This document shows positions 3,849 to 5,980 of a DNA stretch of 6,311 nt, piece by piece. The notes under the pieces are model-generated. The model ran no database searches. It saw only the letters and a list, made by a program, of their open reading frames with translations, and was not told where the DNA came from. This DNA is from a bacterium (GTDB lineage Bacteria > UBP18 > UBA7526), in contig JAUXAI010000062.1 of NCBI GenBank assembly GCA_030619985.1, forward strand, positions 1 through 6,311. The letters run 5' to 3'. A program made the translations under genes and the position numbers. Each line of letters opens with the position of its first letter. Within the stretch, counting starts at the first letter, position 1.

Positions 3849-3860
3849 TTTCGAATAATG
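3845..3860 (+). promoter_or_regulatory. lolC ribosome binding site (inside a repeat) and ATG start
   Basis: GGAG (3845-3848) lies nine bases before ATG 3858. A TTG at 3843 is in frame but would add only five residues and would place the ribosome binding site inside the gene. From 3858 the protein begins MRYSLFIALRYL, the usual start of LolC/E proteins. ATG 3858 is therefore chosen. Confidence 0.75.
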
Positions 3861-5078
3861 CGTTATTCTTTATTTATTGCTTTGAGATATTTAAAGGGAG
3901 GAAAGGGAAGCCCTTTCCTCTCAGTCATTACTTTAATCTCTATCGGGGGAGTAACCTTAGGGGTGGCTACTCTAATCATTACCCTATCTGTAATGAATGG
4001 CTTCCATGAGGACCTGCGGGACAAGATCGTAGGGACCAATGCCCACATCGTCATCCTGAAAGAGGGCTCAGAGGGCTTAGCTAACTATGAAGAATTGGGA
4101 AGAAGGGTTGAGGGAATGGAGCATGTCCTGGCCACCTCTCCCTTTATCTTCGGCCAGGCCATGATAAGATCCTCTACAGGTTCTTTAGGGGTTGTGATAA
4201 GGGGGATAGATATAGATAAAGAGACTAAGGTAACAGACCTCGATGAAAATATCATAAAGGGAAACTTGAAGGGGTTTGGTTCCAATAGCCTTATCCTGGG
4301 TAAGGAGCTGGCCATGAGCCTGGGAGCGGATGTTGGCGAACGGGTGAAGATTATATCTCCCAAGGGAATTGCGACGCCCATAGGTATGAAACCTAGGTTC
4401 AAGAATTTTAAAGTCACTGGAATATTCGATACCGGAATGTATGAGTATGACTCAACCCTAGCCTATGTAACATTGGATAGCGCCCAGGGATTATTTGGGA
4501 TGGGGGAGGTGGTTACCGGGCTCCAGGTGAAGATAGATGATATCTACCAGGCAGGTAAGATGGATAAAAGAATCCAGAAGAAATTGGGCTATCCCTACTG
4601 GGTGAGGAACTGGATGGAGCTCAATAGCAACCTCTTCGCTGCCCTAAAGATGGAGAAGATTACCATGACCGTTATTCTGGTTCTTATCATCCTGGTGGCT
4701 GCCTTTAACATCGCCAGCGCCCTGATCATGAAGGTCATCAGGAAGACGAAGGAGATTGGAATACTGAAGGCCATGGGTGCTCAGCGCAAAAACATCATGT
4801 CTATCTTCATCCTGGAGGGATTGATCATCGGCCTTATGGGAACCCTTTTGGGGACATTCATCGGCTCTTTAATCTGTTTCCTGCAAGATAAGTACCATCT
4901 CGTCAAACTTCCTGGAGGAGGAGAGGTTTACTATATCAGCATTCTGCCTATTTCCATAAGAGGAGGCGATATCCTTCTCATTATCTTAGCAACTATCGGG
5001 ATAAGTCTATTGGCCACCATCTATCCTGCCTGGCGGGGAGCAAGACTGGATCCAGTAGAGGCCATTCGTTATGAATGA
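3858..5078 (+). CDS. lolC: Lipoprotein-releasing ABC transporter permease, LolC/LolE family
   Basis: This inner-membrane permease, with the ATPase LolD, lifts mature outer-membrane lipoproteins out of the inner membrane and hands them to a periplasmic carrier (LolA in E. coli). The 406-residue protein has the family layout. A first membrane helix at about 20-45 leads into SVMNGFHEDLRDKI. A periplasmic MacB/LolC-type domain spans about 50-265 and includes the typical KFXVTGIFDTGMYEYDS-like stretch. Three helices follow at about 267-292, 312-342 and 372-391, forming the FtsX-type domain. The cytoplasmic EIGILKAMGA (about 299-308) is the coupling segment that contacts the ATPase. It ends with YPAWRGARLDPVEAIRYE, as expected. 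Only one permease gene is visible, and lolD is followed by an unrelated gene, so LolC and LolE cannot be told apart; it may form a homodimer. Confidence 0.88.
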   Translation: MRYSLFIALRYLKGGKGSPFLSVITLISIGGVTLGVATLIITLSVMNGFHEDLRDKIVGTNAHIVILKEGSEGLANYEELGRRVEGMEHVLATSPFIFGQAMIRSSTGSLGVVIRGIDIDKETKVTDLDENIIKGNLKGFGSNSLILGKELAMSLGADVGERVKIISPKGIATPIGMKPRFKNFKVTGIFDTGMYEYDSTLAYVTLDSAQGLFGMGEVVTGLQVKIDDIYQAGKMDKRIQKKLGYPYWVRNWMELNSNLFAALKMEKITMTVILVLIILVAAFNIASALIMKVIRKTKEIGILKAMGAQRKNIMSIFILEGLIIGLMGTLLGTFIGSLICFLQDKYHLVKLPGGGEVYYISILPISIRGGDILLIILATIGISLLATIYPAWRGARLDPVEAIRYE

Positions 5079-5092
5079 TAGAAGAATAGAGG

Positions 5093-5120
5093 TTTACAGT
5101 TTACAGTTTACAGCTTACAG
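5093..5120. repeat. Heptamer tandem array, TTTACAG x4
   Basis: Three perfect TTTACAG units (5093-5099, 5100-5106, 5107-5113) are followed by CTTACAG (5114-5120). The array starts 14 bp after the lolC stop. CAGTAA (5118-5123) and TTACTG (5133-5138) then form a small inverted repeat around an A-run. Confidence 0.9.
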
Positions 5121-5128
5121 TAAAAAAA

Positions 5129-5187
5129 CTGGTTACTGTTCGTCCGCCCCAGAGGGGCGAGACCTCGCCTTCGGCGGGCTGGTTACT
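5129..5187. repeat. GC-rich palindrome flanked by 9-bp direct repeats
   Basis: CTGGTTACT occurs at 5129-5137 and 5179-5187, exactly flanking 41 bp of GC-rich sequence. Inside are a perfect hairpin, CGCCCC (5145-5150) with GGGGCG (5154-5159) and a 3-base loop, and a second one, CGCC (5166-5169) with GGCG (5173-5176). The 9-bp flanks look like a target-site duplication of a small non-coding element, or like two units of a simple repeat that the element interrupted. It lies in the lolC-lolD gap, just before the lolD ribosome binding site AGAGGT (5197-5202). Confidence 0.7.
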
Positions 5188-5209: not shown

Positions 5210-5926
5210 ATGGATGACATTATCGTAGCTAAAAATTTATATAAGACCTATTATCAGAATGGCCAGACCATTCCAGTTTTAAAAGGAGTGAATCTCAAAG
5301 TAAAGAAGGGGGAGATTATATCCATCGTTGGTCCCTCTGGTGTAGGAAAGAGCACTCTTCTCCATCTTCTGGGTGCTTTGGATAAACCAACCAAGGGAAA
5401 GGTCTTTTTAGGAGAAGAAGAGGTCTATAGTTTAGATGATAAAGAGCTTGCTACTTTAAGAAATAGAAGGATCGGCTTTCTCTTCCAGTTCCATCACCTC
5501 TTAAGCGAGTTCACTGCTTTAGAAAATGTGATGATGCCGGGACTCATAAAAGTCCAAAGTCCAAAGTCCAATGTCCAAAGTCATCGAGAGATAGAGGAGA
5601 GGGCGAAGGGGATATTGGAGGAGATGGGGTTGGAAAAGAGGTTGGATCATAGACCATGTGAGCTATCGGGAGGAGAGCAGCAGAGGGTCGCTTTGGCAAG
5701 GGCTTTAGTAAATGAGCCAGATGTAATTATAGCGGATGAACCAACAGGAAACCTGGATAGGAAAACAAGCGAGGCGATACATAGCCTTCTCTGGAGGTTG
5801 AGTGAAAAGAAGGGAAAGACCCTCATTATTGCTACCCATAATGAGGAGTTAGCTAAGAGAGCCGAGCGCATGGTTCGCCTGGTGGATGGCAGGACCGCAG
5901 ATGACCGCAGATCGAAACGCAGATGA
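5210..5926 (+). CDS. lolD: Lipoprotein-releasing ABC transporter ATPase LolD
   Basis: LolD is the cytoplasmic ATPase that powers the LolC/E permease encoded just upstream. The 238-residue protein carries a full ABC domain: Walker A GPSGVGKS (41-48), Q-loop Gln93 (FLFQF), signature LSGGEQQR (152-159), Walker B VIIADE (172-177) with catalytic Glu177, D-loop in GNLD (180-183) and H-loop His210. FHHLLSEFTALENVMMP is typical of the LolD/MacB group and, with the neighbour, supports LolD. ATG 5210 has AGAGGT (5197-5202) seven bases upstream. Two oddities appear. Residues 114-124, between the Q-loop region and the helical subdomain, are encoded by a heptamer repeat. Residues 229-238 and the TGA stop are encoded by another repeat that begins at 5893. 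All ATPase motifs are intact, so the protein is probably functional. Confidence 0.93.
   Translation: MDDIIVAKNLYKTYYQNGQTIPVLKGVNLKVKKGEIISIVGPSGVGKSTLLHLLGALDKPTKGKVFLGEEEVYSLDDKELATLRNRRIGFLFQFHHLLSEFTALENVMMPGLIKVQSPKSNVQSHREIEERAKGILEEMGLEKRLDHRPCELSGGEQQRVALARALVNEPDVIIADEPTGNLDRKTSEAIHSLLWRLSEKKGKTLIIATHNEELAKRAERMVRLVDGRTADDRRSKRR
5549..5583. repeat. Heptamer array AAAGTCC x5 inside lolD
   Basis: Three perfect AAAGTCC units (5549-5569) are followed by AATGTCC (5570-5576) and AAAGTCA (5577-5583). The array encodes LolD residues 114-124 (KVQSPKSNVQS). Because three 7-bp units make 21 bp, gain or loss of three units keeps the frame. By comparison with LolD proteins as I remember them, the segment between MMPxLI and ERA is about seven residues longer than usual. 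Confidence 0.9.
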
Positions 5927-5980
5927 CCGCAGATTTATCAGCGACAATCAGCGCACTATATCAGCGACAATCTGCGTTTA
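5893..5980. repeat. Composite repeat at the lolD 3' end (GACCGCAGAT and ATCAGCGACAATC units)
   Basis: GACCGCAGAT occurs at 5893-5902, 5903-5912 and 5925-5934. ATCAGCGACAATC occurs at 5937-5949 and 5960-5972. AAACGCAGAT (5915-5924) and ATCTGCGTTT (5970-5979) form a 10-bp perfect inverted repeat. The element begins inside lolD, supplies its last ten codons and stop, and ends one base before the ribosome binding site of the next gene. It is unlike the other repeats here; its form recalls interspersed repeats seen in several uncultivated bacterial lineages. Confidence 0.85.

Follow-up and report, generated by a model that had tools for sequence, protein, structure and literature searches.

The lolD gene of the window, by which we mean the whole stretch of 6,311 nucleotides analysed here, contains an array of AAAGTCC heptamers that lies in frame and encodes a loop of the ATPase, and this array is not unique, being one of dozens of in-frame short repeats in core genes of the clade. 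The clade is the window's GTDB phylum, which is represented in the searched set by six species (G000 to G005) of a single family, one of them being bacterium UBP18_UBA7526. With a probability of roughly two in three, the lolD array is a copy of a clade-wide dispersed repeat of heptad periodicity that enters or re-forms at tolerant loops and whose copy number drifts by steps that keep the frame.

A heptamer-encoded loop in LolD

The genes of the window are ordered as lnt (its end), prfB, lysS, lolC/E, lolD, and a PilZ-domain gene, prfB and lysS having been identified by their translated sequences. The features at and around lolD are the following.

3858..5078, + strand: lolC/E permease gene, the partner of lolD (TIGR02212, 394 bits, above the cut-off)
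5092..5121, + strand: GTTTACA heptamer array of the same heptamer class, in the gap between lolC/E and lolD
5141..5177, no strand assigned: GC-rich double-hairpin element CCGCCCCAGAGGGGCGAGACCTCGCCTTCGGCGGG in the same gap, with TGGTTAC-type heptamers on both flanks
5210..5926, + strand: lolD-like ATPase gene of 238 aa, directly 3' of lolC/E
5549..5583, + strand: AAAGTCC heptamer array of three perfect and two one-mismatch units, LolD residues 114-125
5893..5934, + strand: decamer array GACCGCAGAT, which gives the final codons of lolD (DDRRSKRR) and its stop

At the other end of the window, an octamer array (AAGTTGAT, 671-737, 8.4 copies) gives the final codons and stop of lnt, and prfB (991-2083) has the usual +1 programmed frameshift site, GGGGC TAT CTT TGA C, near 1048-1063.

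The best NCBIfam match of the ATPase is LolD (TIGR02211), and the name leans on the gene context too because the score of 283.8 bits lies under the curated cut-off of 307.75. The Walker A motif, LSGGE, and DEPTGNLD are all found in the protein, and LolD chains came out on top in a PDB sequence search. The AlphaFold2 model, with a mean pLDDT of 90.9, has Aquifex LolD (2pcj) as its best structural match (Z 32.8, rmsd 1.2, 218 aligned) and also matches the chains of E. coli LolCDE.

A heptamer array within LolD, lying between the Q-loop and the signature motif, had been put forward in a preliminary description of this DNA, and it proved to be real and correctly placed. The five units at 5549-5583 are, in order, AAAGTCC, AAAGTCC, AAAGTCC, AATGTCC, and AAAGTCA, and TRF calls the array at 5549-5582 with period 7, 4.9 copies, a 92% match, and a score of 61. 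Codon 114 begins at 5549, and the array-encoded residues 114-125 (KVQSPKSNVQSH) sit between Q93 and the LSGGE signature at 152-156. When the sampled clade DNA (~1.1 Mb) was simulated with an order-2 Markov model, no array of period 7 passed the threshold used here. Three perfect AAAGTCC units (21 bp) are present in four of the six clade genomes, compared to none of 187 other genomes. In the AlphaFold2 model, the array-encoded segment is predicted to form the loop joining helices 103-112 and 125-138, with residues 111-120 as the sole internal block of low confidence (mean pLDDT 65). No hairpin was formed by the DNA of the array on folding. We infer that the array is neutral for LolD function.

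The same loop was compared among the six species, its length being counted by eye from P110 to the GL that ends the next helix. The loop has 25 residues in the closest LolD-like protein from another phylum (L041), 32 in the window, 28 in each of G003, G001, and G005, 39 in G004, and 78 in G002. Seven extra residues had been equated with three repeat units; the excess of seven shows up whether the protein is aligned to E. coli LolD or to LolD-like proteins from other phyla, but its equation with three inserted units is a counting coincidence, because about 12 residues are array-encoded and the excess in the relatives amounts to 3, 3, 3, 14, and approximately 53 residues.

In all six species, the loop is encoded by repeat-derived DNA that is open and in frame, with units that differ between lineages: AAAGTCC-type units in genus g1 (G000, G003, and G004), ATATCAG in G001, and GGAGTTC/AGTTCGG in G005 and G002. 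Inside the array of G004 lies a GC palindrome, CTGCCTCGCCGGCCGGCAGG, while the long loop of G002 holds, in frame, a GC element (CCGCCCCAAAGGGGCGAGACCTCGCCTTCGGCGGG) that is one base off the element at 5141-5177 of the window, together with a second copy of an EIGERAREIL-like segment. The repeat is absent at the corresponding loop position of the nearest paralogue of LolD, which is 52% identical and occurs in G000 and G003. Close relatives of equal length with a non-repetitive segment, which would mark ancestral protein sequence, are thus not what the alignment of LolD proteins displays. The proposal that a simple repeat had entered or grown at a place where frame and fold allow it is supported by the other repeats at this site in orthologues, by the predicted loop, and by the same pattern in many other genes.

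Period-7 arrays across the clade and its core genes

Array densities were obtained from 20 sampled stretches of each of four clade genomes and from two controls, one of 296 kb made up of loci from other organisms and one of 647 kb taken from 40 genomes belonging to other families. The sampled stretches contain 11.8 (G000), 13.2 (G003), 7.5 (G004), and 5.8 (G005) period-7 arrays per 100 kb, compared to 1.0 and 1.9 in the respective controls. Heptamer arrays therefore do occur beyond lolD, at 6-13 per 100 kb in the clade against 1-2 in other phyla, AAAGTCC being only one of many units. Within ORFs of at least 150 aa, 68 arrays were found in 1.12 Mb of clade DNA, compared to none in the 296 kb and four in the 647 kb of control DNA. 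In a stricter self-match scan, periods 7 and 8 were in excess, octamers being the second most enriched period, and periods 6 and 9 hardly at all. Most arrays span 30-35 bp with about 4.5 units, a distribution whose lower end is shaped by the TRF threshold. Per base, arrays are enriched outside ORFs, yet about half or more overall, and 12 of 13 in G005, lie within long ORFs. Among 58 consensus units, 47 are stop-free in the sense and 26 in the antisense direction, a difference that is partly circular, the arrays having been picked inside ORFs.

The units are diverse, with 52 classes among 114 arrays, and are nevertheless shared between sites: 18 sharing pairs in G000, 47 in G003, and 10 in G004, numbers reached by none of 2000 simulations each. 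In simulations with random 7-mers, sharing in G005 was not significant, so that some arrays may have been born locally. In the AAACCGT family, an intergenic pattern (ACCGTAAACCGTACACCGTTAACCGTAAACC) has identical unit variants in identical order at many loci, which argues for copying. Unit sharing and variant order suggest that the arrays were dispersed through copying. In consisting of tandem 7-bp units dispersed across the genome above chance, the arrays agree with the heptameric SSR or STRR class.

One alternative is that nothing is dispersed and that every array had its own, independent local birth, a chance heptamer in a tolerant loop having been multiplied by replication slippage. The number of unit classes, the three-unit copy-number steps described below, and the lack of significant unit sharing in G005 are what such local slippage could produce. 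However, unit sharing in the other three genomes lies well above that of random 7-mers, intergenic copies have a common variant pattern, and slippage predicts neither the sharp preference for 7-8 over 6 and 9 nor a most frequent length near 31-34 bp. We consider slippage as the only source unlikely.

By NCBIfam names, the array-bearing ORFs include UvrA, IleS, MurF, Fmt, TsaD, enolase, adenosylhomocysteinase, ProC, TrpE, LpxK, ThrC, Lnt, NadC, and an asparagine-synthase-like (asnB-like) amidotransferase; a ValS ORF bears two octamer arrays. Orthologues of several of these were compared. At the first site of the asnB-like gene, G000 has TCCAAAGTCC... (AAAGTCC) and G003 AATGCAAAATGC... (AAAATGC), and G005 has GGGTCAAGG without an array; at the second, ACCGATC heptamers surround the GC element known from 5141-5177 of the window in G000, and AAAATGC is found in G003. 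In proC, ileS, trpE, and lpxK, orthologues hold unlike units at one shared place, whereas at thrC and an 810-aa ORF two species have the identical unit in near-identical arrays. The uvrA gene has six AAAAATC units in G000 and about three in G003 between similar flanks, a difference of exactly 21 bp, and the murF orthologues also differ by 21 bp at the array. These comparisons imply that array sites persist while their content turns over. A test of common descent for the units at orthologous sites, run on pairs picked by hand, gave a borderline P of ~0.05. Units exclusive to one lineage were ruled out, since three copies of AAAATGC are found in G000 and further species too. Between G000 and G003 orthologues, most indels are other than heptamer arrays, and an apparent RecA insertion in G005 turned out to be a run of N in the assembly, with no real sequence.

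Hydrophobic, signal-peptide-like stretches near the N-terminus are also encoded by heptamer or octamer arrays at L110:6380-6410, L177:5481-5510, L134:10813-10846, and L112:3383-3417; the L110/L177 orthologue pair has different units at this stretch.

These comparisons bear on three further explanations. The array had also been suggested to be a length-variable switch, since 7 is not divisible by 3 and gain or loss of a single unit would put the gene out of frame; as a phase switch, it would thereby turn LolD off. Heptanucleotide switches are indeed known in other bacteria, one example being neuO of E. coli K1 (PMC13001214). This suggestion is not supported: the frame is kept in all six species with no off-frame allele among them, the two clean copy-number differences (uvrA and murF) are three-unit steps, the lolD array is short and imperfect, and lolD, as a core lipoprotein exporter gene, is atypical for surface variation. 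A phase-variable role is thus highly improbable. Artefacts of assembly or binning might be suspected because the clade sources are all draft MAGs and short repeats are prone to collapse, but separate MAGs agree on the thrC and 810-aa ORF arrays and on repeats at the same lolD loop, and an ordinary short read is longer than an array of ~35 bp, which makes this explanation barely credible. Lastly, the repeats could be selected for a function, either because a period-specific factor binds or recombines DNA there or through a role of the loop in the protein; a strong preference for period 7-8 whatever the unit sequence and a favoured copy number near 4.5 would fit such a function, whereas orthologues differ freely in unit sequence and peptide and one orthologous site is arrayless, so that we regard selection as very doubtful.

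Palindromic elements, mismatch repair, and a proposed origin of the arrays

The GC element at 5141-5177 of the window is also present in frame in the asparagine-synthase-like gene of the same genome. Further copies of this double-hairpin element were observed at L100:3379, L109:3810, L111:968, L126:17685, L140:7634, and L015:531, and the sampled copies are flanked by two heptamer-like runs of any heptamer sequence, as if the element inserted into heptamer arrays at a fixed phase. Another element, a 26-bp GC palindrome (CCCCGCCCCTGNNNNCAGGAGCGGGG), occurs in all six clade genomes and is absent from 943 kb of control DNA. Its copies include L123:4618-4643, L131:17279-17304, L134:17160-17185, L138:10350-10375, L140:8431-8456, and L233-L242:1501-1526. 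Exact 4-bp T-A-rich direct repeats (TAAA, TTAA, TTTA, TGAA, and TTCA) flank nine of about 13 copies; since 26 + 4 = 30 bp, insertion preserves the reading frame, and for two copies within coding sequence of G003 the G000 counterpart is an empty site. This palindrome looks like a very short MITE. More clean in-frame insertions of GC-rich palindromic DNA, 30-66 bp long and present in one of two orthologues, were seen at L121:6006-7278, L106:4551-5418, L115:5170-6094, and L117:15192-17634. For the heptamer arrays themselves, neither a target-site duplication nor a mobilising enzyme was found, and a Y1 (RAYT-type) transposase or a reverse transcriptase was rejected as their generator, with no match in the six genomes.

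No match to MutS_III (PF05192), MutS_V (PF00488), or MutL_C (PF08676) was obtained in any of the six clade genomes, which are draft MAGs of at best ~93% completeness, whereas 11 of 14 control genomes match each of the three; RecA was found in all six. These profile searches are suggestive of a phylum without MutS and MutL. Loops of 7 nt normally escape correction by mismatch repair. The likelier link to repair would be a lost brake on recombination between diverged repeats.

Under the dispersed-repeat reading that we prefer, repeats of ~31-34 bp, comprising about 4.5 heptamer units of many sequences, would enter or be rewritten at tolerant places, including surface loops of core proteins. A stop-free array is open in every frame because 7 mod 3 = 1, and a stop-free 7-bp unit, covering three frames per 21 bp, would be translatable wherever it landed. 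Within genes, selection would retain only copies whose net length is divisible by three. Slippage or unequal recombination may then change the copy number, three-unit changes (21 bp, 7 aa) being those expected to survive in genes, and the unit sequence may turn over by drift, homogenisation, or replacement. The apparent loss of MutS and MutL may help by permitting recombination between diverged copies. A stronger version, which we put forward tentatively and hold to be improbable, is that the phylum, apparently lacking MutS and MutL, has a dedicated process by which tracts of ~31-34 bp with period 7-8 are written or copied into the genome nearly regardless of sequence; loops on the surface of essential enzymes would be its lasting landing sites, their repeat content being rewritten between species.

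If the dispersed-repeat reading is true, the clade would offer a natural example, of unusual density, of core proteins that take up non-triplet repeats and stay intact. The repeats would be a source of variation in protein loops throughout a phylum and a test case for the fate of short repeats after loss of mismatch repair. Annotators and structure modellers would then have to treat such loops as recent repeats rather than conserved sequence.

Comparison with known repeat systems

A literature search that had most subscription journals outside its range returned no paper on UBP18 repeats or on heptamer arrays in core proteins with unit turnover. Heptamer arrays and in-frame repeats are each known already; the scale, the internal positions in core enzymes, and the turnover of units look new. 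The heptameric SSR/STRR of Nostoc, Calothrix, and Xanthomonas (GGGNATC), which are mainly intergenic (Rehm et al. 2015, PMC4692102), resemble the clade arrays in their period of 7, genome-wide occurrence, and preference for about four units. Those repeats, however, comprise one or few G-rich units over-represented in non-coding DNA, whereas the clade has many units, dozens of them within conserved genes. Marine Beggiatoaceae have TAACTGA direct repeats in 169 sets, mostly just 5' of starts (MacGregor 2015, PMC4679880). These are likewise heptamer direct repeats, in two to six copies, with a few in ORFs and one of these in an RNA-polymerase-like ORF, but they consist of a single unit, and those in ORFs mostly affect hypothetical proteins or the ends of proteins.

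Phase-variable SSR switches, such as those of Haemophilus and neuO, share with the clade arrays a tandem repeat that lies within an ORF and has a unit length not divisible by 3; the clade arrays differ in their three-unit steps, their core genes, and the absence of off-frame alleles among six species. The Rickettsia palindromic elements, as summarised in PMC10969869, are palindromes of ~150 bp that encode conserved peptides and lie in frame in many metabolic genes. The likeness is in how they work, as repeats translated in frame across many unrelated metabolic genes; the lolD array, at ~35 bp, is non-palindromic and does not fold, its kind encodes peptides that vary between sites, and it falls outside this element class. 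A closer analogue of the Rickettsia elements than the heptamer arrays is the 26-bp palindrome of the clade. The clade thus joins both known kinds, having heptamer arrays in the core proteins of a whole phylum, with units that turn over at fixed sites.
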